From Adlercreutzia hattorii (lineage in GTDB: Bacteria > Actinomycetota > Coriobacteriia > Coriobacteriales > Eggerthellaceae), in NCBI RefSeq assembly GCF_011405655.1, contig NZ_AP022829.1:1659001-1723000 (forward strand): a DNA stretch of 64,000 nt. The letters run 5' to 3'. A program made the position numbers and the translations under genes. The notes below the pieces were generated by a model, which was not told where the DNA came from, made no database searches, and saw nothing but the letters and a program-made list of their open reading frames with translations. Positions 10,540 through 27,608 of this stretch are shown piece by piece; position 1 is the first letter of the stretch; each line of letters opens with the position of its first letter.

Positions 10540-10642
10540 CTTACTATGACCGTTTCGGCTCCATCGTTTGTATGATGGTAGCCATAAGGTTCGGGCCGCC
10601 CGGGGATTGATAGCGGCCGATCAGAGAGCAGAAGGGGCTGAC

Positions 10643-12277
10643 ATGATCGACGACCTGAAGATCAACGAGACGCTGAGAGAACGTTGGTACGCCAAGGGGT
10701 ATTGGACGCACGACACCATCGCCGACATCTGGCAGCGCGCAGCCGTCGCGCACCCCGATCGCGAGTACGTCTGCGACGACACGGGAAGCCGCCTCACCTA
10801 TGGAGAAGTAGACGACAAAGCCGGGCGTGTGGCCGCATGGCTTATCGCCGAGGGCATAAAAGCCGGCGACGTCGTCACCCTGCAGTTCCCCACCTGGGCC
10901 GAGTTCTGCATCGTCTATGTGGCCGTGCTGAAAGTCGGCGGCGTGGTGCATCCGGTGCCGCGCAACTACAATGACGTGGATCTGGAATACGCCATGAACC
11001 TCGTCGGCTCCCGAGCCTACCTCTCCCCCACCTTCTCCCACAACACCGACTACGAGGCGCAGATCCTCTCCGTGCGCGACGCCGTGCCGACGCTCGCCGC
11101 CATCGCCGTGCTGGACAAGCAGGCGCCGAGCCACTCGGAGCTGCCCACCTTCGACGACATCTACGAGCGCTTCGAGCCCTTGCGCGAGCCCGTTCCGGTG
11201 TCCGCCGATTCCGTGGCCTGCATCCTGCCCACCTCGGGCACCACGGGCAAGCCGAAGCAGTCCATGCTCACCCACAACAACATCCTGTTCTCCGAGCGCG
11301 TCTTCACGAGAGAGTTGGGGCGCACCCAGGGCGACGTCATGTTCATGCCCTCGCCCTTGAACCACGCCACCGGCTTCTTCCACGGGCTCATCTCGCCGCT
11401 TCTGCTCGGCGGGCGGGCGGTGCTGCAGCAGGACTTCCGACCGCGCGAGGCCATCGAGCTCATGAACGCCGAGGGCGTCACCTGGTCCATGTCGGCCACG
11501 CCGTTCATCTACGACATGCTGAACGCGCTGGACGCCGAGGACGGCCTGGCCTTCGACACCCTGCGGCTGTTCTGCTGCGGCGGGGCGCCCCTGCCCCCGG
11601 CCCTCATCGAGCGCGCGGCCCGCTACGGGGTGCTGCTCTGCGAGATCTACGGCTCCACGGAAAGCTGCCCGCACGTGTTCGTGCCCCCGGAGAAGTGCGC
11701 CGAGTGGAACGGCGCCTGGTCGGGCGTCCCCTTCGCGGGCATCGAGGTCAAGGTCATCGACGAGGCAGGCAACGAGGTGCCCCGGGGCGCCCAGGGCGAG
11801 GAGATCTCCCGCGGGCCCCACATGTTCGTCGGCTACCTGAACGAGCGCGACCGCACCGACCGCGCGCTTTCCGATGAGGGCTGGTTTTACAGCGGCGACC
11901 TGTGCTACATGGACGAGGAAGGGCGCATCCGCATCAACGGACGCAAGAAGGAGGTCATCATCCGCGGCGGCGAGAACATCTCGGCCCGGGAGATCGACGA
12001 CGACCTCATCGGCGCGCCGGGGTTGGCCAACTCGGCCACCATCGGCATGCCGGATACGCGCCTCGGCGAGCGCATCTGCACCTTCGTCGTGCCGAGCGAC
12101 CCCGCCGCGCCTCCTACCCAAGACGGGCTCATCGCCTACCTGAGGGAGCGCCACGTGGCCAAGCGCCTGTGGCCCGAGCGCATCGAGATCATCGACGAGA
12201 TCCCCGTCACCGCCACCGGCAAGGTGAAGCGCTTCATCCTCGCGCAAATCTTGAAGGAGCGCATGGAGGCGGAGTAA
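10643..12277 (+). CDS. acid-CoA ligase 2 (paralogue of ligase 1)
   Basis: A 544-residue AMP-dependent acid-CoA ligase. It shows the A3 motif PTSGTTGKPKQSMLTHNN, GSTES, the SGDLCYMDEEGRIRINGRKK block and the catalytic Lys near ATGKVKR at the end. An in-frame ATG at 10568 exists, but GAAGGGG sits correctly for the ATG at 10643, and the two paralogues then begin alike (MIxDLKINE). The two proteins match over the whole length, while the acid-pocket side around residues 100-135 differs more, for example SLARNFN versus PVPRNYN. This suggests duplication and a shift in substrate. It is followed by a long palindrome and a strong terminator facing acyl-CoA dehydrogenase 2. Confidence 0.88.
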   Translation: MIDDLKINETLRERWYAKGYWTHDTIADIWQRAAVAHPDREYVCDDTGSRLTYGEVDDKAGRVAAWLIAEGIKAGDVVTLQFPTWAEFCIVYVAVLKVGGVVHPVPRNYNDVDLEYAMNLVGSRAYLSPTFSHNTDYEAQILSVRDAVPTLAAIAVLDKQAPSHSELPTFDDIYERFEPLREPVPVSADSVACILPTSGTTGKPKQSMLTHNNILFSERVFTRELGRTQGDVMFMPSPLNHATGFFHGLISPLLLGGRAVLQQDFRPREAIELMNAEGVTWSMSATPFIYDMLNALDAEDGLAFDTLRLFCCGGAPLPPALIERAARYGVLLCEIYGSTESCPHVFVPPEKCAEWNGAWSGVPFAGIEVKVIDEAGNEVPRGAQGEEISRGPHMFVGYLNERDRTDRALSDEGWFYSGDLCYMDEEGRIRINGRKKEVIIRGGENISAREIDDDLIGAPGLANSATIGMPDTRLGERICTFVVPSDPAAPPTQDGLIAYLRERHVAKRLWPERIEIIDEIPVTATGKVKRFILAQILKERMEAE

Positions 12278-12484: not shown

Positions 12485-13627
12485 TTATTGGTACTCCCGG
12501 TCGAGTTCCTTGGCGATGGTCATGCGCTGGATCTGATTCGATCCCTCGAAGATCTGGAAGATCTTGGCGTCGCGCATGAGCTTCTCCACCGGGTACTCCT
12601 CGGAATAGCCGTAGCCGCCGAGCACCTGCACGGCGTTGCTCACCACCTCCTGCATGGCGTCGGTGACGAAGGTCTTCACGATGGCGCCGTCCTTGCGCAC
12701 CATCTCGCCGGCGTCCATCTGGCGCATGCAGTTGTTCACGAGAACGCGCGCCGCCTCGGTCTTGATGGCCATATCGGCGAGCATCTGCTGCACCATCTCG
12801 AAGTCGATGAGGCGCCGCCCGAACTGCTTACGCTGCTTCGCGTAGGCCACGGCCTCGTCGAGCGCTCGCTGCATGATGCCCACGGCCAGCGTGGAGATAA
12901 AGGCCCGGGAGAGGTTCAGGGCGTTCAGAGCGATGGACATGCCCTGGCCCACTTCCCCGATGACAGCGCTTTGGGGCACGCGCACGTTCTCGAGAACGAC
13001 CTCGGTGGTGTCCGACAGGCGGAAGCCCATCTTGTGCTCCTTGGCGCCGGCAGCAAGACCCGGGGTGTCGCCGTCGATGAGGAAGCCCGTGATGCCGTGG
13101 GCGCCGGCCTCCGGGTCGGTCTTGGCGAACACCACGTAGATGTCGGAGATGGAGCCGTTGGTGATGAAGGTCTTGGTGCCGTTCAGAACGTACTCGTCGC
13201 CGTCGAGCACCGCCGTGGTGCGCATGGCCGCCACGTCCGACCCGGCGTTGGCCTCGGTGAGGCAGAAGGCGGCGAACCCGTTGTTCTCGGTCTTCTCCAC
13301 GAAATGGCGCGCCTGCTCCTCGGTGCCGTTCAGAAGGATGTTGCGGAAGGCGACGAAGTTCGTGACGAAGGTGTCGGCATAGGCGGCATCCACCCAGGCC
13401 AGCTCCTCGAACATCATGGCGCAGGTCTCGTAGCTTAAGCCCATGCCGCCGAACTGCTCGGGTATCTCCACCATGTGCAGTCCCAAATCGAAGCCCCACT
13501 GGTACAGCTCGCGGGGGCACTCCCCTGCCTTGTCGGCCGCGGCCACGTGCGGCATGACCTCGTTGCGGGCGACGTCGCGCACAAGCTGCACGAGCTCGCG
13601 CTGCTCCTCGGTGTAGGTGATGGCCAT
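12485..13627 (-). CDS. acyl-CoA dehydrogenase 2 (SCAD/BCD-like)
   Basis: A 380-residue acyl-CoA dehydrogenase of standard short-chain type. The FAD motif FCLTEANAGSD is at about 121-131, RKQFGR at about 266-271, and the catalytic Glu is E361 in FQIFEGSNQIQ. The frame is open to 13666, but GAGAGGAAA precedes the ATG at 13627, which gives the usual family start MAITYTEEQ. It is the last gene of the etfB-etfA-FeS oxidoreductase-NUDIX-MBL operon, 79 bases after the MBL gene. It is therefore the dehydrogenase most directly tied to this ETF and the membrane oxidoreductase. It may act as a butyryl/short-chain enzyme in either direction. Confidence 0.9.
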   Translation of the reverse strand: MAITYTEEQRELVQLVRDVARNEVMPHVAAADKAGECPRELYQWGFDLGLHMVEIPEQFGGMGLSYETCAMMFEELAWVDAAYADTFVTNFVAFRNILLNGTEEQARHFVEKTENNGFAAFCLTEANAGSDVAAMRTTAVLDGDEYVLNGTKTFITNGSISDIYVVFAKTDPEAGAHGITGFLIDGDTPGLAAGAKEHKMGFRLSDTTEVVLENVRVPQSAVIGEVGQGMSIALNALNLSRAFISTLAVGIMQRALDEAVAYAKQRKQFGRRLIDFEMVQQMLADMAIKTEAARVLVNNCMRQMDAGEMVRKDGAIVKTFVTDAMQEVVSNAVQVLGGYGYSEEYPVEKLMRDAKIFQIFEGSNQIQRMTIAKELDREYQ

Positions 13628-13706
13628 AGGTTTCCTCTCTCTTTCAGCCCCGCGGGGCACTTGCATGCGGCTCTATCGCGTGCCGGGCGGAACGAGGCCG
13701 CCGGCG

Positions 13707-15525: not shown

Positions 15526-15529
<4 letters not shown>
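14516..15529 (-). CDS. NUDIX hydrolase, NUDT19/CoA-diphosphatase-like
   Basis: A 337-residue NUDIX protein. The NUDIX box is split: FPGGGMD (about 125-131) and AAAREVFEESGVLL (about 166-179) are separated by about 35 residues, the insertion typical of NUDT19/RP2-type acyl-CoA diphosphatases. The expected activity is cleavage of CoA or acyl-CoA to 4'-phosphopantetheine and 3',5'-ADP. It overlaps the FeS oxidoreductase stop (ATGA) and the MBL start (ATGA), so it is translationally coupled in the etf operon. This fits removal of stalled or toxic CoA esters, but specificity is inferred only from the box layout and context. Confidence 0.8.
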
Positions 15530-17634
<2,105 letters not shown>

Positions 17635-17646
17635 GACGCACCTCCC

Positions 17647-18609
17647 CTATTTGCGCTCGCGGACGGCCGCCCCCAGCAGCGGCACCGCCTCGAAGAGATC
17701 CGCGACGATGCCGTAGTCGGCGCCGGCGAAGATCTCCGCCTCGGGATCCTTGTTGATGGCCACGACGCACTTCGAGGCACCCATGCCGGCCATGTGCTGG
17801 ATGGAGCCGGAAATGCCGCAGGCGATGTACAGCGAGGGCGCCACGGTCTTGCCTGTCTGGCCCACCTGGTACTGGATGTCGATCCAGCCCTCGTCCACGG
17901 CCGGGCGCGAGGCACCCACGGCGGCCCCCAGGGCATCGGCCAGAGACTCGATGACCGCGAAGCCCTCAGGCCCCTTGCAGCCGCGGCCGCCGGCCACGAC
18001 GATGTCCGCCTCGGCCAGATCGACACGCTCGGAGGCAGCACGGGCCACGGACTGCACGATGCGAGCGAGGTCGGCTGCGTCAGCCGGGGCCGCGATGACC
18101 TCGGCGGTGCGGGAGGCGTCGACCTCGGGCACCGGGAGCGCCTTCGGGCGCACCGTGGCCACCACGGTGGGGGCGGCTGCGGTTGCGCGCTCGATCACCT
18201 TGGCGGTGTAGGGCAGGCGCGTGAAGAAGACCTCGTCGCCGGCCTCGATATCCACCACGTCCGAGAACAGCGGCGCATCCAGGGCCTCGGCCAGAAGAGG
18301 GGCCGCTACGCGAGATTCGGCGCCGTCGGCGAGCAATACCACGGCCGGGGCGCTCTCGGCGGCCAGCCGGGCCAGCGTGCGGGCCACGGCCTCGGGGGCC
18401 GGTGCGGCCTCGCTTTCCACAATCACCACGCGGTCGGCACCCCACGAGGCGAGCGCCTTGGCGTGGCCTGCGGCGGACGCGCCCCACACGATGGCGACCA
18501 CTTGAGCGGCCGCCTGGTCGGCCAGCGCCCGGGCGCCCCCCAGCATCTCGGCATTTACCTGGCGCAGCGCCTCATCGGCGCCGTTGACCCCTACCCACAT
18601 ATCAGCCAT
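17647..18609 (-). CDS. etfA: electron transfer flavoprotein alpha subunit
   Basis: A 320-residue ETF alpha chain. The C-terminal FAD-binding domain shows [14 protein letters not shown] (about 204-217), [11 protein letters not shown] and [20 protein letters not shown], all standard for the family. With EtfB it carries electrons between acyl-CoA dehydrogenases and the membrane FeS oxidoreductase encoded directly downstream. AGAAAGG precedes the ATG. The gene lies 55 bases after etfB in the same operon. Nothing is missing. Confidence 0.95.
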
Positions 18610-18664: not shown

Positions 18665-19432
18665 CTAGAGAACCTTCGCCTCCTCGGCCAGAAGGCGCAC
18701 CGTCTCGGCCACGGCCACAGGCGCCTCGCCCGCGACGATGCGGCCGCCGCAGCGGCCCGACTTCAGCTCCCGGGAGACGACGGTCACCGTTGTCGGTTTG
18801 GACGCCGCGGCGAAGTCGGCCACGGGACGCACCTCGGCGCCACGGCGCCGCGCCCGCATGACGTCGCGCACCGAGGGGTAGCGCGGCTCGGCTAGTCCCT
18901 GCTGGGCGGCCACGACGGCGGGCAGAGGAAGCCGCGCGGTCTCCACGCCGTCGTCCACCTCGCATTCCGCGACGATAGTGCCGCCTTCCACGGAAAGACC
19001 CGTGGCCATGTTCGCCAAAGGGAGCCTCATGATGGCCGCCATGCGCCCCATGACCTGGGCCGCCGCCGTATCTCCCGACTTCCAGCCGCCCATGACGAGG
19101 TCGGCGCCCATCGTGGAGGCCGCCTCGGCGAGCAGGGCCGCGGCCTGGGCGGCGTCGCGGGCCGTCCACTGCTCGTCCTCGATGAGCACGGCCGCATCGG
19201 CGCCCATGGCCAGCCCGTGGCGCACGGCCGCGAGGCAATCCTGAGAGCCAAGCGTCAGCAAGGTAACGGTGCCACCCAACTCTTCTTTCAGCTGCACAGC
19301 ACGCTCCACGGCGAACTCGCTGTAGGGATCGATGACCATGGTCTGGCCCATTAGCTCCACCTCTCCGGCCCCGTCAAGCGCTATGACGGCCTCGGTGTCC
19401 ACCACCTGCTTCACGCAAACGACGATGTTCAT
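18665..19432 (-). CDS. etfB: electron transfer flavoprotein beta subunit
   Basis: A 255-residue ETF beta chain beginning MNIVVCVKQVVDTEAV, with DPYSEFAVERAVQLKE and the AMP/FAD segment near GWKSGDTAAAQVMGRMAA. It is the first gene of the six-gene operon, after a 282-bp region that contains a terminator for coaD and paired ATCTGTCCCA motifs. The presence of one non-bifurcating-looking ETF pair with a membrane oxidoreductase points to quinone-linked electron flow. Whether FAD or AMP occupies the beta subunit cannot be decided here. Confidence 0.95.
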   Translation of the reverse strand: MNIVVCVKQVVDTEAVIALDGAGEVELMGQTMVIDPYSEFAVERAVQLKEELGGTVTLLTLGSQDCLAAVRHGLAMGADAAVLIEDEQWTARDAAQAAALLAEAASTMGADLVMGGWKSGDTAAAQVMGRMAAIMRLPLANMATGLSVEGGTIVAECEVDDGVETARLPLPAVVAAQQGLAEPRYPSVRDVMRARRRGAEVRPVADFAAASKPTTVTVVSRELKSGRCGGRIVAGEAPVAVAETVRLLAEEAKVL

Positions 19433-19515: not shown

Positions 19516-19592
19516 TTGTCCGCACCATACGGACGTATCTTTCTATCTGTCCCAAAATGCACAAAGCCCCGATCGTCCGCAATGGGACAGAT
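19516..19592. promoter_or_regulatory. paired ATCTGTCCCA operator-like sites before the etf operon
   Basis: ATCTGTCCCA at 19545-19554 and its exact inverse TGGGACAGAT at 19583-19592 flank 28 bases. GTCCG...CGGAC (19518-19534) adds a third TGTCC element. The sites lie 84-160 bases upstream of etfB. The gap 19433-19714 also holds perfect or near palindromes CCCTTATAAGGG (19627-19638) and GGGACGTTCTGTCCC (19636-19650). Regulatory function is inferred. Confidence 0.5.
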
Positions 19593-20440: not shown

Positions 20441-20450
20441 ATCTGTCCCA
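20441..20450 (+). promoter_or_regulatory. ATCTGTCCCA motif upstream of the MetH-activation-like gene
   Basis: An exact copy of the decamer found before etfB and the TetR gene, followed by TTAATTCGTCCG. It lies 129 bases before the start at 20579, in an AT-rich stretch between the divergent coaD and 20579 genes. Confidence 0.45.
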
Positions 20451-20578
20451 TTAATTCGTCCGAAATACGATCAATCTTACCAATACTTGTCCAATAGCAT
20501 CCCAATTCATCGGATTCATTGATAGAATAGTCCCAGAGAAGAGATACCGCTTGAATCATTGGAAGAATCGAGGCGGCC

Positions 20579-21343
20579 ATGCAAGTACACGTCATCCATG
20601 AAATCGACTGCTCCGTCGAGCGCATCGACCCTGCCGTCGTCGAGGCCTTCCTCGACGCCGAGCTCTCCGACGATCCCATGCTCGCCGACTCCATCTGCGC
20701 CATGGCGGACGCCATGAGCGCCGAGCTGCATCCGCGCGGGGTCTACAAGCTGTTCAATCCCGCCATCTGCACCCTGCCGCCGAAATACACCGAGCCGGCC
20801 ATCAAGCTCGTGGGCACGCTGGCGGTGCTCTACGGCAGCGCCGCCTACGAGCGCATGAGCGAGGCGGAGCACACGGCCATGGCGGTCTCCACCATCGGCA
20901 CCGACGAGGAGATCGCCTGCCTTCGCGAGCGCCTCGTGAAAAGCGACATGGACGCTCTGCTCTTCGACGCCTGCCTGGAAGCCATGGCCTCCTTGGCCGC
21001 GGACAAGCTCGCCGAGGCCGTCGCCGACGACGCCCACGAGCGCGGCCTGCACCGCGGCAGCACCTTGGAGACCGGCGTCGAGGACTTCCCCCTCACCATG
21101 AACACGACGCTCGCCTTCTTCACCCAGACCGAGAAGCGCCTGGGGCTCACCGCCGCCGAGGACGGCACGCCGTCGGATCGCTGGAGCACCTGGGGCGTCA
21201 TCGGCCTGTACAACGAGACCCAGAAGAAGCGCCGCGGCTGCGCCTACTGCCACAACGTGCGCACCTGCACCATCCGCAAGATCGGCATGACCTGCCACGG
21301 CCGCCGCACTAGAAAGAAGGCAAAGTCCACTTCCGCCCAATAG
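20579..21343 (+). CDS. MetH-activation-domain-like protein with C-terminal Cys cluster
   Basis: A 254-residue protein. The segment VSTIGTDEEI...KSDMDALLFDACLEAMASLAADKL (about 98-140), together with EDFPLTMNTTLAFFTQTEKRLGL, follows the pattern of the cobalamin-dependent methionine synthase activation domain (ATLG, DM..DA..., DFPL.Q..., ..K.IG.). The C-terminus adds CAYCHNVRTC and a further Cys, which could bind a metal or FeS cluster. Relatives of this fold reactivate corrinoid enzymes or serve in one-carbon pathways. No methyltransferase or corrinoid protein is nearby, so its partner is unknown. It has its own terminator and an ATCTGTCCCA motif upstream. The family call comes from pattern memory, not a search. 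Confidence 0.55.
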   Translation: MQVHVIHEIDCSVERIDPAVVEAFLDAELSDDPMLADSICAMADAMSAELHPRGVYKLFNPAICTLPPKYTEPAIKLVGTLAVLYGSAAYERMSEAEHTAMAVSTIGTDEEIACLRERLVKSDMDALLFDACLEAMASLAADKLAEAVADDAHERGLHRGSTLETGVEDFPLTMNTTLAFFTQTEKRLGLTAAEDGTPSDRWSTWGVIGLYNETQKKRRGCAYCHNVRTCTIRKIGMTCHGRRTRKKAKSTSAQ

Positions 21344-21365: not shown

Positions 21366-21390
21366 AAAGGGCACCACCAGGTGCCCTTTT
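21366..21390 (+). terminator. rho-independent terminator
   Basis: AAAGGGCACC pairs with GGTGCCCTTTT across an ACCA loop, 23 bases after the stop of the 20579 gene. Confidence 0.9.
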
Positions 21391-21762: not shown

Positions 21763-22944
21763 TTAGATGGTCCAGAGGTAATCCGGATCCTCGGCAGCCT
21801 TGGCGTACTCCTTGAGGATGCCGCGGCCGGAAATGTGCACCATGATCTCGACGGTGCCGCCACCGATCTGGAAGCCGCGGCAGTCGAGCATGAGGCGGGA
21901 GACGCGGGTCTCGTCGGTGAAGCCGAGGCCGCCCATGAGCTGCAGGGCGCGGGAGCAGCAGTCGGTGAGCGCCGGGGCGCCGTAGCGCTTCAGCATGGCG
22001 GCGTCGTTGTTCACCGGGATGCCGTTGTCCATCTTCCAGCAGGTGCGGTACAGGAAGTTACGGGTGTTGGTGAGCTCGATCTGCATCTCGACGATGTGCT
22101 CCTGCACGAGCTGGAAGGTCTTGATGCCCTTGCCGAACTGCTGGCGCTCGTTGGTCCAGGCGCAGGCGTCGTCCATGGCGGCCTGGGCCTCGCCGAGCAG
22201 CTCCGCCAGAAGCACGCAGCGCTCCCACTCGAAGTTCTTCATGAGCTGCAGGAAGCCCTTGCCCTCGATGCCGAGCAGCGCCGACTCGTCAACCACGACG
22301 TCGTCGAAGATGACCTTGGAGAAGGGCATGATCTGCATGCCGATCTTGTTCAAGGGCTCGATGGTCACGCCCTTGGCGTTGGCCGGCACGAGATACATGG
22401 ACATCTGCTTGTTCTCGGGAGAGGGATCCTCGTTCTTGCACACCACGATGAAGCCGTCGGAGTTCTCGCCGGAGGTCACCCAGGTCTTGGTGCCGTTGAT
22501 GTGTATCTTGCCGTCCTTCTTGGTGGCCGTCGTCGTCATGTACTGGTTGGCGGAGCCGGCCTCGGGCTCGGAGATGGCCAGGCAGTACGGCGGGTAGCCG
22601 TTCTCCTTGTAGTAGTCCACGGCGTACTGGATCTGCTCGGGGGTGCCGAACTCGACCATGTCGAACATGATGAGCAGGTTGGGAGCCATGGGGATGTTGC
22701 CGCCGCAGTGGTTCAGCTCTTCGATGATCATGGCCATGGTCTGATGGTCGACGGGCTTTCCACCGTACTCCTCGGGCAGGCCGTACATTCCCCAACCGTC
22801 GTCGACCCACGCCTTGGCGATCTCGGGGGCGATGCCGCGGTTCTTATAGCCGGCGGCGATGGCCTCCTCGGTCAGGTGCTTCTTGCCCCACTCGCGGATG
22901 CCGCGCTTGATCTCGAGCTGCTGCTGGGAATAGCTGAAATCCAT
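21763..22944 (-). CDS. acyl-CoA dehydrogenase 3 (CaiA-like, relocated catalytic base)
   Basis: A 393-residue acyl-CoA dehydrogenase with CLAISEPEAGSA at about 121-132 and RQQFGKGIK at about 267-275. The C-terminal segment reads FQIGGGTVEIM: the usual catalytic Glu is replaced by Gly (residue 362). A Glu is present at E241 in FEWERCVLL, the position used as base by isovaleryl- and long-chain enzymes. E. coli CaiA, as remembered, also has an ER there and lacks the C-terminal Glu. It lies 118 bases after the OYE-type reductase on the same strand, so the two probably act on one substrate. AAAGGAGGA precedes the ATG. Substrate unknown; a branched, cyclic or bulky acyl group is plausible. Confidence 0.87.
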   Translation of the reverse strand: MDFSYSQQQLEIKRGIREWGKKHLTEEAIAAGYKNRGIAPEIAKAWVDDGWGMYGLPEEYGGKPVDHQTMAMIIEELNHCGGNIPMAPNLLIMFDMVEFGTPEQIQYAVDYYKENGYPPYCLAISEPEAGSANQYMTTTATKKDGKIHINGTKTWVTSGENSDGFIVVCKNEDPSPENKQMSMYLVPANAKGVTIEPLNKIGMQIMPFSKVIFDDVVVDESALLGIEGKGFLQLMKNFEWERCVLLAELLGEAQAAMDDACAWTNERQQFGKGIKTFQLVQEHIVEMQIELTNTRNFLYRTCWKMDNGIPVNNDAAMLKRYGAPALTDCCSRALQLMGGLGFTDETRVSRLMLDCRGFQIGGGTVEIMVHISGRGILKEYAKAAEDPDYLWTI

Positions 22945-23062: not shown

Positions 23063-25144
23063 TTAGATGGCCATGGAGGCCTGGTAGCCGCCCTTGACGG
23101 CCTCAAGCGTGCGGTACACCTTGCCGTCGGGGGTGGTGGCGTCGCCGATGAGCTTCGCGTGCGGCCACACCTTCACGATCTCGTCGTACAGATCGGTGTT
23201 CTGCTCCACGCCGAGGGAGGTCAGCACGGTGTCGCACTCGATGAGCTGCTCCTCGCCGGTTTCGACGTTCTTCACCTTGGCGCCCTTCTTGGTCACCTCG
23301 ATGAGCTCGGTGAGGGGCATCAGGTGCACGCCCTTCTTCTTGAGCAGGTTGATGGTGGGGTTCTTGTCGATGATGCCGATGCCGTTGCCGAGCTTCTTGG
23401 CCGGATCGATCACCCAGATCTCGCGGCCGTCGCACATGGCCTCGGCCACTTCCAGGCCGGCGAAGCCGCCGCCCACGACCACCACGCGCTTGCCCACGAT
23501 GGCGGTCGGGCCGCTCTTCATGTTCAGGCCCATGCGCATGAACCCGACGGTGCCGCCCTGGGCCTTGATGGCCGCCACGGCCGCCTTCCAGATCATGCCC
23601 TTGCCCTCGGGGACGATGCCGTTGCACATGGCCTTGATGTCCTCGGACTTCACGACGTTCTTGCCGTCGATGCCGGGCACGTCGATGGGGATGATGCCGC
23701 CGCCGGGCGAGACGATGACCTGGTCGGGGTTCAGGGCGCGCAGGGTGTCCACGTCGACCTTGGTGTTCAGCTTGATCTCGATGTTGGGATGAAGCTTCAT
23801 CTCCTCGTTCCAGTAGGAGACCAAAGGCTCGATGTTGGCGTTGAGCACCTGGGCCATGGTCAGCAGGCCGGCGAGCTTGTCCGACTTCTCAAGCACGGTC
23901 ACCTTGTGCCCGCGCTCGGCCGCCACGCGGGCCGCCTCCAGGCCGCCAGGACCCGCGCCCACGACGGCGATGTGCTGCTTCTCGGTGGCGGGCTTGTCCT
24001 GGGGCAGGCCCACTTCCACGCCCTCCCACACGTTCGCGTTCACCGAGCACTGGCAGGGCTTGCCGATGAAGATGTTGTCCAGGCAGCGGGAGCACACGAT
24101 GCAGGGACGCACCTGCTCCGGACGGCCCTCCTCCACCTTGCGGGCGGTGTCGGGATCGGCGATGAACTGGCGCGCCATGCCGACCGCGTCGCCGTAGCCC
24201 TCGGTGACGACCTTCTCGCACATATCGAGCGTATTGATGCGGGTGCCGGGGAATACCGGCTTGGAGGTGACGGTCTTCACCTGCTTCGCGAGGTCGATGA
24301 ACTCGCCCTCGGGCACGATCTGGTTGGCCACGGGGCGGGGCGCCTCGTGGAAGCCGGCCTGCACGGACCAGGCGTCAACGCCGTGGGCCTCGACGATAGG
24401 GATGAGCTCGAGGGTGTCGGCGATGCGGTTGCCGTCGGGCATGAGGTCGTCGGCGGAGATGCGCACGAGAATCGGCATGTCGTCGCCGCAGGTCTTGTGA
24501 ATCTCGTCGATGATCTCGCAGAGGAAGCGGGCGCGGTTCTCGGCCGATCCGCCGTACTCGTCGGTGCGGTGGTTGGAGTACTTGGAAAGGAAGCGCATCA
24601 CCATGTAGCCGATGCCCGCGTGGATCTCGATGATGTCGATGCCGGCATCCTTGCAGCGGCGGGCGGCCTGGCCGTACTGCTTTACGACCTCGGCGATCTC
24701 CTCTTTGGTGTACTCGCGCTCGGGCATGCCCACGAACGGGCCGGAGGGCACGTCCTTGGAAGGAGCGTAGGACAAAAGCGGATCATCGCCAGAGGCGCGC
24801 CACTCGTAGCACAGCTGCAGCTGGGCGGCCACCTTGGATCCGTGCTTGTGGCACACCTCGGCGATGCGCTGGAAGCCGGGGATGAACTCATCGTCCCAGC
24901 ATCCGCAGGCGCCGGTGGTCGTGTGGTACTTCGGCTCGGTGCCGAAGCAGTCGCACACATAGCACGACCCGATCTCGATCAGGCCGGCATGGCCCTTTGC
25001 GCGCTGCTCGTAAAAGTCCACCAAGTCATCGGTCACGTGGTAGTTGTCCACCTTCTCGATGGTCATCGGCAGCATCACGAAACGGTTGCGCAGCTCGACA
25101 TTGCCGATCTTAAACGGCTCCACCAGTTTCTGGTACTTCGCCAC
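23063..25144 (-). CDS. NADH:flavin oxidoreductase / 2,4-dienoyl-CoA reductase-like (OYE-FadH/BaiH type)
   Basis: A 693-residue iron-sulfur flavoenzyme with three parts: an N-terminal FMN TIM barrel, a 4Fe-4S motif, and FAD/NAD(P) domains. The barrel shows EIHAGIGYMVMRFLS and DEYGGSAENRARF. The cysteine motif is CIVCSRC...CQC, spaced C-x2-C-x2-C-x11-C, against C-x2-C-x3-C-x11-C in E. coli FadH as remembered. The pyridine-dinucleotide folds begin VVGAGPGGLEAA and VVVGGGFAGLEVA. Such enzymes reduce C=C bonds conjugated to a carbonyl in enoates, dienoyl-CoA or steroid/bile-acid CoA esters. The GTG at 25144 after GAAAGGAG is preferred over the upstream ATG at 25228. It heads an operon with acyl-CoA dehydrogenase 3 and is divergent from a TetR regulator. 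Confidence 0.88.
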   Translation of the reverse strand: MAKYQKLVEPFKIGNVELRNRFVMLPMTIEKVDNYHVTDDLVDFYEQRAKGHAGLIEIGSCYVCDCFGTEPKYHTTTGACGCWDDEFIPGFQRIAEVCHKHGSKVAAQLQLCYEWRASGDDPLLSYAPSKDVPSGPFVGMPEREYTKEEIAEVVKQYGQAARRCKDAGIDIIEIHAGIGYMVMRFLSKYSNHRTDEYGGSAENRARFLCEIIDEIHKTCGDDMPILVRISADDLMPDGNRIADTLELIPIVEAHGVDAWSVQAGFHEAPRPVANQIVPEGEFIDLAKQVKTVTSKPVFPGTRINTLDMCEKVVTEGYGDAVGMARQFIADPDTARKVEEGRPEQVRPCIVCSRCLDNIFIGKPCQCSVNANVWEGVEVGLPQDKPATEKQHIAVVGAGPGGLEAARVAAERGHKVTVLEKSDKLAGLLTMAQVLNANIEPLVSYWNEEMKLHPNIEIKLNTKVDVDTLRALNPDQVIVSPGGGIIPIDVPGIDGKNVVKSEDIKAMCNGIVPEGKGMIWKAAVAAIKAQGGTVGFMRMGLNMKSGPTAIVGKRVVVVGGGFAGLEVAEAMCDGREIWVIDPAKKLGNGIGIIDKNPTINLLKKKGVHLMPLTELIEVTKKGAKVKNVETGEEQLIECDTVLTSLGVEQNTDLYDEIVKVWPHAKLIGDATTPDGKVYRTLEAVKGGYQASMAI

Positions 25145-25556
25145 GGCTAAACTCCTTTCAATTACTTCCCCACAGGTTTCAAGGGTATTAGGTATGATTT
25201 CAAGCTTTTGACCATGTTGTCTTCTCATGATCCTCGCATTTGGAAATCTCTACCCAATTTGACTTGCTTTGTCCGCCTTTCAAAGCGCCGACCGAGCTGA
25301 AGTCTCCTCGTGACTCTTATTCTACGGAGATTGCTTTGCTTTACGATGGACAGATTTATCTATCTGTGTATTACTTCATAGGCAAATCTTCATCATCCAT
25401 AGGCATTTGCCGCATAAGTAGTCGTTTTGACCCCGTAAAATAGGCGCAACTAACCGAACCATCGGCATTTCCATTGCACATTTCGATTTATCTGTCCCAT
25501 ATTTTGTCGAAAGATCCTATAATGGGCGCAACGGAAGAGAACCGAAGGAGGAACCC
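25145..25556. promoter_or_regulatory. 412-bp divergent control region, OYE-type reductase / TetR
   Basis: It holds TTTGTCCG at about 25266, TGGACAGAT...ATCTGT at 25347-25367 (6-bp arms ACAGAT/ATCTGT, 6-base spacer) and an exact ATCTGTCCCA at 25490-25499. A clear -10 box TATAAT is at 25518-25523 for the TetR gene; the decamer overlaps where its -35 box should be, so a bound protein there would block or replace -35 recognition. No gene is supported in this gap. Confidence 0.5.
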
Positions 25557-26210
25557 ATGAACGCGCTTTCCACCATGCTGCTCATCTCCGACGCCTTCGT
25601 GGAGCTGTGTGACGAGATGCCCTTGCGCAAGGTGTCTATCAGCGACATCGTCGAGCGCACGGGGAAGAACCGCAAGACCTTCTACTACCACTTCGAGAAC
25701 AAGGACCGCCTCATCATCTGGATCTTCCGCTACGACATGGGCCAGTGCTTAAAGCAGCATTTCTCCGAGTCGGTGCTCCTCTACGACGACGATCCGGAGG
25801 ATCCCACCTCGCGATTCCCCTACTATATTACTCAGAAGTCCGGCGTGCGCTCGCTCGATCACGCGGAGTTCTTCCAGTGCTTCGCCGAGGTGTTGGAGGG
25901 CCGACGCAACTTCTACCGCCAGGCGCTCGTGGACAACGGCCCCTACTCGCTGCGCAACTACCTGTACGCGCTGTACCTTGAGGCCATGAAGCGGGACATC
26001 GACATCATTTTGTCCAACCGCTACCTGCCGAAGGACAACATCGACTTTCTGGCCGAGTTCTACACCTGCGCCTTCCTCTACTACTACATCCGCCGCTGCG
26101 ACGCCCGCGGCGTCGAGTCCATCGGCGGCCAGGCCGGCCCCTTCGCCAACATCATCCACAGCTCCCTTGAAAACGAGATCAAGGAAGCCCAGATGCGGCG
26201 GAATTTGTAG
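25557..26210 (+). CDS. TetR/AcrR-family transcriptional regulator
   Basis: A 217-residue one-component regulator. Residues about 8-55 form the TetR helix-turn-helix: VSISDIVERTGKNRKTFYYHF is the recognition-helix block, with TFYYHF as the signature. The rest is a helical ligand-binding and dimerisation domain rich in Tyr and Phe. GAAGGAGGA precedes the ATG. It is divergent from the OYE/acyl-CoA dehydrogenase 3 operon and upstream of acyl-CoA dehydrogenase 4, so it probably controls these and perhaps itself, responding to an acid or its CoA ester. The promoter carries TATAAT and an ATCTGTCCCA site. Confidence 0.9.
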   Translation: MNALSTMLLISDAFVELCDEMPLRKVSISDIVERTGKNRKTFYYHFENKDRLIIWIFRYDMGQCLKQHFSESVLLYDDDPEDPTSRFPYYITQKSGVRSLDHAEFFQCFAEVLEGRRNFYRQALVDNGPYSLRNYLYALYLEAMKRDIDIILSNRYLPKDNIDFLAEFYTCAFLYYYIRRCDARGVESIGGQAGPFANIIHSSLENEIKEAQMRRNL

Positions 26211-26393: not shown

Positions 26394-27608
26394 ATGGGCA
26401 AGTTGACCGACGAGGAGTTCCGCGATTTCCTGAAGACCTGCCGCGAGCTGGCGGAAGGCCCCTTCGAGGAGATGCAGCGCGAGGTGGAGGTCACCAACAA
26501 GTTCCCCCAGGAGTTCATCGACCTGGCCCGCGAGAACAACCTGTACCGCTACGCGCTGCCCGAACAGTACGGCGGGTGGGGCTTCACCGAGAAGGAGATC
26601 CTGCAGGTGCAGGAGGAGTTCTCCCGGGGCCCTGGCGGCATGCGCATGCACCTGCACTACGCCGCCGACCTGAACTGGCGCATCTTAGACGACTATGGAT
26701 GCGACGAGCTGAAGGCCGCCTACATGGACAAGTTCGCCGACAAGACCATCTTCACCTGCTTCGCGCTCACCGAGCAGACTGGCGGCACCGGCGCCGACGT
26801 GCACACCACCGCCGTGAAGGATGCCGAGGGCAATTACATCTTGAACGGCGAGAAGTGGCTCATCTCCCATACCGACGTGGCCCAGTTCGCCTACGTCATC
26901 GCCGTGACCGACCCCGACAAGGAGGGCGACGAGCGCTTGAGCGCGTTCTTCGTGCCCATGGACGCCGAGGGCTTCGAGCTGGTGGACATGCCGCACATGA
27001 TGGGCTGCCGCGGCGCGGGGCACGCCGGCTTCAAGATGACCAACGTGAAACTCGAGCCGAAGTATTTGCTCGGCCGCGAGGGGCAGGGCATGGAAGTGGC
27101 CATGCACTCGCTGGCCATCTCCCGCGTGCACATCGCCGACTCGAACCTCGGCATGTGCCAGCGCATGCTGGAGATGTCGCTCGCCCGCGCGCGCGACCGC
27201 GTGACCTTCGGCAAGACCATCAACACGCGCCAGGCCATCAAGATGAAGCTGGCCGACATGGCCACGGCCACCCACGCCCTGCGCTGCATGATCATCGATT
27301 TCGCCGAGGACTACGACCGCGACCCGCACAACCCCTACATCGCCGAGAAGGCGGCCATGTGCAAGCTGTTCTCCATCGAGGCGGTGAAGAAGGTCTCCGA
27401 CGAGATGCTGGAGATTTTCGGCGGCGACGGCTACTTCGAGGGCTCCCCCTACGGCCCCACCGAGCGCCTCTATCGCGACTGCCGAGCGCTGTGGCTGGAG
27501 GAGGGCTCCCCCACCATCCAGCGCATCACCATCGCCCGCGAGCTGGAGCGCCACGATGGCGTCGTGGAATACCCCGCCCTCGACTGGATCGCCGGCACCG
27601 ACCTGTAG
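26394..27608 (+). CDS. acyl-CoA dehydrogenase 4
   Basis: A 404-residue acyl-CoA dehydrogenase. CFALTEQTGGTGAD (about 120-133) replaces the more common TEPxAGSD FAD loop, RDRVTFGK is seen at about 264-271, and WLEEGSPTIQ keeps a catalytic Glu near residue 372. It carries an unusual C-terminal tail of about 20 residues after the family end. ATGAGGAGGC precedes the ATG at 26394. It follows the TetR gene by 183 bases and has its own terminator. It is clearly diverged from the other three dehydrogenases, so it probably serves a different acyl chain or step of the same route. Confidence 0.87.
   Translation: MGKLTDEEFRDFLKTCRELAEGPFEEMQREVEVTNKFPQEFIDLARENNLYRYALPEQYGGWGFTEKEILQVQEEFSRGPGGMRMHLHYAADLNWRILDDYGCDELKAAYMDKFADKTIFTCFALTEQTGGTGADVHTTAVKDAEGNYILNGEKWLISHTDVAQFAYVIAVTDPDKEGDERLSAFFVPMDAEGFELVDMPHMMGCRGAGHAGFKMTNVKLEPKYLLGREGQGMEVAMHSLAISRVHIADSNLGMCQRMLEMSLARARDRVTFGKTINTRQAIKMKLADMATATHALRCMIIDFAEDYDRDPHNPYIAEKAAMCKLFSIEAVKKVSDEMLEIFGGDGYFEGSPYGPTERLYRDCRALWLEEGSPTIQRITIARELERHDGVVEYPALDWIAGTDL

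Follow-up and report, generated by a model that had tools for sequence, protein, structure and literature searches.

A diverged paralogue of stand-alone MetH-reactivation proteins shares its genomes with a CaiA/YdiO-like acyl-CoA dehydrogenase in Eggerthellaceae

The gene at positions 20579..21343 (plus strand; 254 aa, ATG start) of the window, i.e., the whole 64,000-nucleotide stretch of DNA analysed here, raises the question of what a protein resembling the activation domain of methionine synthase (MetH) does among genes of acyl-CoA metabolism. The source genome of the window is a single contig of 2.9 Mb, and the nearest species-named relative of the window protein is that of Adlercreutzia mucosicola DSM 19490 (88%; family Eggerthellaceae). 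As read from the sequence, a ribosome-binding-like GAGG (20570..20573, plus strand) begins nine bases 5' of the ATG, and a GC-rich, terminator-like hairpin, AAAGGGCACC-ACCA-GGTGCCCTTT followed by T (21366..21390, plus strand), lies 3' of the stop codon. The hairpin was not among the matches of the terminator scan; it suggests a single-gene transcript. Against three close relatives the gene has a dN/dS of 0.18-0.27, and on this measure it is functional and under purifying selection. In three genomes an unnamed protein of 172-188 aa, with no Pfam match above cut-off, adjoins the corresponding gene (L068:7268-7834, L072:3899-4441 and L069:8761-9279).

Searched alone against Pfam and NCBIfam, the window protein matched no family, even at E<=10, and its PDB sequence matches were antifreeze proteins at chance level, which we rejected. 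Of 138 genomes searched within the family, 73 gave matches. We call proteins of the window type class A (21 genomes; E 1e-171 to 3e-35, with the next match at 1.5e-25) and the remaining matches class B; the source genome carries one of each. G062 gave a weak and partial match (E 7e-5) interrupted by one stop, which we did not count as class A. None of the 21 class A members matches PF02965 at E<=1, and the class A profile alone found nothing meaningful in the PDB (one chance-level match, E 5). Family membership is reached through class B. Aligned with hhalign, the class A and class B profiles match across 223 columns (E 8.4e-43), and the class B profile in turn matches 1J6R, the Thermotoga maritima MetH-reactivation structure, at E 1.8e-19, while 14 of the 15 aligned class B members match PF02965 at E<=1 (best 1.7e-5), the sole exception being the copy in the source genome. 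Since class A matches class B, and class B matches both 1J6R and PF02965, the fold assignment stands, and by transitivity it holds, from sequence comparison, that class A descends from stand-alone MetH-reactivation proteins. The earlier note had placed the protein in the MetH-activation fold family and proposed a profile search for likeness to that domain; the placement is borne out by this route, without a direct match. Beyond the family, the class A profile matches relatives elsewhere in the Coriobacteriia at E 6e-35 and a distant outgroup at E 6e-14. A match to PF02965 elsewhere in the source genome (G000:C1:1653416, E 0.016, in a 912-aa frame) was taken as an unrelated long protein, because many comparably long frames throughout the family match this same short stretch of the profile (about 57-144). 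A scan of viral contigs with the class A alignment gave 40 pattern matches, none of which was confirmed.

For the tree and the motif counts we used 69 rows (21 class A, 28 class B, 11 class C and 9 outgroup), the class B rows being those loci that were taken, a subset of the matches in the 138 genomes, with repeats of one gene excluded. ORFs were cut to their last 255-262 residues on account of long in-frame extensions; L053 was excluded from class B as its ORF is without a tail, and L154 gave no matched ORF. In the maximum-likelihood tree the 21 class A rows form one clade with a support of 100/100, on a long stem of 1.23 changes per site. Class A has also diverged quickly, with 30-88% identity to the window protein, and 34 columns are invariant across its 21 rows. 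A structure prediction from three near-identical sequences (the window protein, L032 and L033) reached a pLDDT of 38.8, too low for a usable model.

The residues that set class A apart fall into a loss and two gains. The AdoMet motif of the family, which we take to be RxxxGY, is replaced in the window protein (21062..21094, plus strand) by TLETGVEDFPL, where the class B copy of the same genome reads RFSPGYGDLPL. Its arginine together with Tyr or Phe is found in 0/21 class A rows, in all 39 class B and C rows (37 Tyr, 2 Phe) and in 2/9 outgroup rows; among class A, Arg is present at the motif in 8/21 and Tyr or Phe in none. In E. coli MetH, whose C-terminal activation domain (1MSK) falls under the Pfam family that class B members match, Arg1134 and Tyr1139 are reported to contact AdoMet in a 2005 survey of AdoMet-binding folds (PMC1282579). 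Judged by motif spacing, these two residues would lie in RxxxGY and would not be kept in class A, the comparison covering this pair of contact residues.

The gains are Cys64 and His98. Cys64 lies in the class A signature YKLFNPAICTLPPKYTEPAIKLVGT (residues 56-80; 20744..20818, plus strand), which reads YKxFNPAxCxLPPxYxEPxIKLVGT over the invariant columns of the 21 rows, and His98 is encoded at 20870..20872 (plus strand); each is present in 21/21 class A rows and absent from all 39 class B and C rows and all 9 outgroup rows. The cysteine tail, CX2CX5CX8CH (C221-H240; 21239..21298, plus strand), has a different history. The cluster CAYCHNVRTC and the further Cys that had been pointed out are indeed there, as C221, C224, C230 and C239 followed by H240, but they were not added to this protein: all four cysteines occur in 21/21 class A rows and in 36/39 class B and C rows (the other three, L035, L036 and L152, stop short of the tail), and the first three in 9/9 outgroup rows, which makes the tail an inherited feature of the family. 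It is a putative Fe-S or Zn site; with four cysteine ligands conserved in 21/21 rows, class A qualifies as a candidate iron-sulfur protein, and zinc is equally possible.

Does class A still serve a corrinoid enzyme? In the source genome the class B copy (G000:C1:483112-483795, equivalent to L034:6812-7495) lies immediately 5' of a metH-like gene, a long frame that holds the only PF02607 and PF02310 matches of the genome and is about 1.19 Mb from class A. The gene just before this class B copy is presumably metF, and the PF02965 search gave no score at the class B/metH-like location. Because the class B copy directly precedes the metH-like gene, MetH in this genome, to judge from gene order, has its own activator, and class B represents the usual partner of MetH. 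In many other genomes, too, a class B gene lies no more than a few kb from the PF02607 gene, and some second class B copies (e.g., in G069) sit away from it. The description of the window gene as an orphan thus stands in part: it is distant from MetH, and it is one of two paralogues, the other of which directly precedes a metH-like gene. That there is no corrinoid gene nearby is confirmed by the location of the sole PF02607 and PF02310 matches.

Genome-wide co-occurrence with corrinoid proteins, which had been proposed as a check, was not found. PF02607 is present in 97 of the 138 genomes, namely 13/21 with class A and 84/117 of the others, and the two are not associated (Fisher p = 0.44, odds ratio 0.64). 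Among the 8 of 21 class A genomes that are missing PF02607, five (G003, G007, G052, G053 and G104) show no match to either PF02607 or PF02310 at E<=0.001, a count that misses corrinoid enzymes with other domains; their completeness is 99, 85, 100, 99 and 98, respectively, and the genome at 100% is a one-contig genome. As for the other three, G076 has one PF02310 match above cut-off and one weak match, and G130 and G131 have weak ones. These counts, together with the loss of RxxxGY in 21/21 class A rows, speak against the suggestion that the protein reactivates a corrinoid enzyme used in demethylation. We consider reactivation of a corrinoid protein, perhaps one invisible to PF02607 and PF02310, very improbable, even though it is the ancestral function of the family and relatives without RxxxGY are found near corrinoid-protein genes: neither the absent association nor the five genomes without both domains fits it, and the cluster around class A has no corrinoid gene.

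The outgroup cautions against reading too much into the motif. Seven of its nine rows lack the Arg and [YF] pair, and three of these (L166, L169 and L171) sit near a corrinoid-protein gene, so loss of the motif by itself would be no proof that corrinoid work has ended. Across the ten outgroup stretches a corrinoid-like gene was seen in L165, L166, L167, L169 and L171 and not in L157, L168, L170, L172 and L173, several stretches being short. By Pfam, the neighbours in L171 are a corrinoid protein, RACo and a pterin-binding protein. L171:3655-9175 and L169:3695-9203, from a distant lineage of Actinomycetota, look like corrinoid methyltransferase operons which combine a RACo-type activator (by Pfam for L171 only) with a MetH-activation-like protein without RxxxGY.

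Loss of all function is harder still to credit. A decaying or hitch-hiking second copy of a MetH activator would be expected to evolve fast and could lack the AdoMet motif, as class A does, but the dN/dS range given above, the invariant columns, and retention in 21 genomes (PF02607 being absent from 8) leave this reading with almost no probability.

A co-occurring partner for class A is found in the cluster itself. ACD2 (21763..22944, minus strand) is a CaiA/YdiO-like acyl-CoA dehydrogenase (NCBIfam PRK12341, 422 bits, under the cut-off of 537), and its orthologues, at 84-98% identity, are present in exactly the 21 of 138 genomes that have class A (Fisher p 2.9e-25, with genomes treated as independent though they are related); each searched genome has both or neither. 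Both sets are defined by sequence thresholds, and some of the genomes are fragmented drafts. Nine genera hold the pair, seven of which also include genomes without both (some of these incomplete drafts). In a class-wide draw of 396 genomes, strong class A matches (E<1e-90) and ACD2 (>=84%) coincide in 18 genomes, the next ACD2 homologue being at 52%. Of the 19 class A loci with wide flanks (all class A genomes except G000 and G007), 18 contain ACD2 or EtfB; the exception is L059 of G131, where about 231 kb of one contig separate class A from ACD2 and both are kept. Co-occurrence of neighbours can stem from joint transfer of the cluster, and the two genes are clearly far apart only in G131.

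The other genes of the cluster accompany class A less exactly. The OYE-type flavoenzyme (23063..25165, minus strand; Pfam Oxidored_FMN and Pyr_redox_2) has orthologues (>=71% identity) in 23 genomes, i.e., the 21 with class A plus G061 and G062. In the latter two, the locus comprises genes for OYE, TetR, Nudix, MBL and ligase proteins and is without an ACD2 orthologue and without class A. EtfB-like (18665..19432) and EtfA-like (17647..18609) proteins, both on the minus strand, match NCBIfam models under the models' cut-offs, and next to them lies a membrane Fe-S protein with CCG domains (15526..17634, minus strand; Pfam CCG, Fer4 and Nitrate_red_gam), which we call EtfD-like; the names EtfD, CaiA/YdiO and metF are putative, resting in part on subfamily similarity. 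The EtfD-like gene is present in 17/21 class A genomes and in one other, G067, so a fixed electron path through it is not required. The cluster also includes the acyl-CoA dehydrogenases ACD1 (12485..13666, minus strand) and ACD3 (26394..27608, plus strand), both by Pfam, and an acyl-CoA ligase (10568..12277, plus strand; PRK06087, 785 bits, above the cut-off of 736). MBL-fold and Nudix genes (window:13707-15529; Nudix match weak, E 5e-5) accompany it as well, including in G061 and G062. G067:C1:196030-203624 is a diverged cluster without class A (EtfD-like 58%, OYE 46%, ACD2-like 52%).

These distributions make a strong case, on comparative grounds, for class A as an accessory dedicated to the ACD2/OYE system, and its fast divergence next to the high identity of ACD2 looks more like that of an accessory than of an enzyme. 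The evidence on what class A does is weak. It was probably recruited to a new job, because the AdoMet signature is lost, some of its genomes show no B12-binding domain, and it occurs in the same genomes as ACD2. The tail could be a purely structural Zn site, and class A is not alone in having it. The main rival explanation builds on this: class A may be a non-redox accessory that serves ACD2 or the OYE enzyme as a Zn-stabilised assembly factor, chaperone or structural subunit. Co-occurrence with ACD2 and OYE fits such a role equally, as do a protein that diverges fast beside strongly conserved enzymes and a Cys4 tail that can equally be a Zn site. We nevertheless consider it unlikely, if a serious contender, as two invariant residues, Cys64 and His98, lie well away from the tail along the sequence and point to something beyond a structural knot, and the known role of the family is redox reactivation.

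Regulation offers a further link between class A and its neighbours. The site ATCTGTCCCA occurs as an exact match beginning 138 bases before the class A start codon (20441..20450, plus strand), before the gene for a TetR-family regulator (site at 25490..25499, plus strand; gene at 25557..26210, plus strand; Pfam TetR_N and TetR_C_8), and as an inverted pair before etfB (19545+ and 19583-; 19545..19592). With up to one mismatch, the window has 10 matches against 2.8 expected. The whole genome has 5 exact sites, as compared to 0 for the reversed control pattern; four lie upstream of cluster genes and the fifth is inside an ORF. It is possible that the TetR regulator owns these sites. The promoter site described earlier as common to class A and the etf genes is thus present, exactly, at both, and co-regulation would be what it implies. 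We then scanned 400 bases upstream of the 19 other class A loci (G007 excluded): the site was exact at one (L071), had one mismatch at two (L057 and L073) and two mismatches at four (L054, L055, L056 and L058), and no match within two mismatches was found at 12. With conservation this weak among relatives, we do not regard ATCTGTCCCA as a conserved operator. On the minus strand (window:20420-20449), it overlaps the -35 element of a sigma-70-like match (GGGACA-18-TATAAT) that faces coaD; 1 such site was found in the scan, against 1.6 expected by chance.

The operator-like site in common, the divergent arrangement of class A and etfB in several genomes and the basic, Cys-rich tail would suit a regulator or ligand sensor, whose old AdoMet groove senses acyl-CoA or the redox state and tunes the TetR regulon. 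Such a role is improbable in our assessment, given that the cluster already has a TetR gene of its own, that no DNA-binding domain scored above chance-level zinc-finger scores, and that class B tails of like composition occur in proteins adjoining metH-like genes.

We tentatively prefer, at somewhat below an even chance, the explanation that class A is a neofunctionalised MetH-reactivation paralogue which acts as a metal-binding accessory, probably redox-active, of the acyl-CoA flavoenzyme system. Conserved cysteines and ancestry favour a protein that contains metal and partners a flavoprotein in a redox or reactivating role. The ancestral protein meets a reduced flavoprotein, and the MetH activation domain meets flavodoxin. 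In class A, the four tail cysteines and His240, perhaps joined by Cys64 or His98, would hold an Fe-S cluster or Zn; in a similar way to the MetH domain, the protein may dock on a flavoprotein of the cluster (ACD2, ETF or the OYE enzyme), and would keep it active or relay electrons to it, the ancestral chemistry with cobalamin and AdoMet being probably gone. The proposal that the protein has taken on a novel redox function in the catabolic pathway is consistent with this picture and can now be tied to ACD2, with the redox step itself still putative. A more specific form, in which the fold does without AdoMet and cobalamin and is reused to relay electrons through Fe-S to, or to reactivate, an acyl-CoA dehydrogenase/reductase of gut Eggerthellaceae (a CaiA-like enzyme with an OYE-type partner), is speculative and in our opinion rather unlikely.

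Among known systems, class A is closest to the stand-alone MetH-reactivation proteins of class B (PF02965), with which it shares the 223-column homology and the cysteine tail. Class B keeps RxxxGY and is often near a PF02607 gene, whereas class A has lost the motif, carries Cys64 and His98 as gains, and is tied to ACD2. TM0269 of T. maritima (1J6R) belongs to the same fold family as class A, via class B and with no direct class A match; the match with class B, which spans positions 23-206 of the 233 in the profile and stops at residue 211 of 214, falls short of the Cys tail. The corrinoid activators RamA and RACo, which contain Fe-S, perform a task analogous to that of the class A ancestor, but the window protein has no Pfam match at E<=10 to their ASKHA domain (PF14574), which is accompanied by a ferredoxin domain, and a RACo gene was seen beside one outgroup relative only (L171). 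The acyl-CoA dehydrogenase, ETF and ligase of the cluster match the same NCBIfam models as the E. coli cai/ydi systems (CaiA, YdiO, YdiQR), and we know of no MetH-activation-like gene in those operons.

Judging from titles and abstract openings, none of the papers found describes the class A protein or its cluster, and no paper was found that joins an activation domain with acyl-CoA dehydrogenase and ETF. The 2005 survey describes the MetH-activation fold as confined to one specialised system, methionine synthase (PMC1282579). With its AdoMet signature lost, its persistence in genomes that show no B12-binding domain and its occurrence only alongside ACD2, the class A clade would show this fold at work outside methionine synthase. 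The pairing also supplies a concrete, testable partner (ACD2) for a protein invisible to Pfam and NCBIfam models, and class A may uncover a component still missing from the picture of acyl-CoA or enoyl-CoA metabolism in gut bacteria.

Two relatives in the outgroup have a setting of their own. L173:5789-6469 and L157:1453-2145 encode MetH-activation-like proteins that score above the PF02965 cut-off and lack the Arg and [YF] pair. A third relative of the same type, L172, had no recognised Rnf-Nqr-like neighbour in its 7 kb. In L173 and L157 the genes adjoin those for Rnf-Nqr membrane proteins and a ferredoxin-type gene (the latter by Pfam for L173), and no corrinoid gene was detected in either stretch, that of L157 being just 3 kb. 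On account of these neighbourhoods, the MetH-activation family may have been drawn into redox settings before, or more than once.
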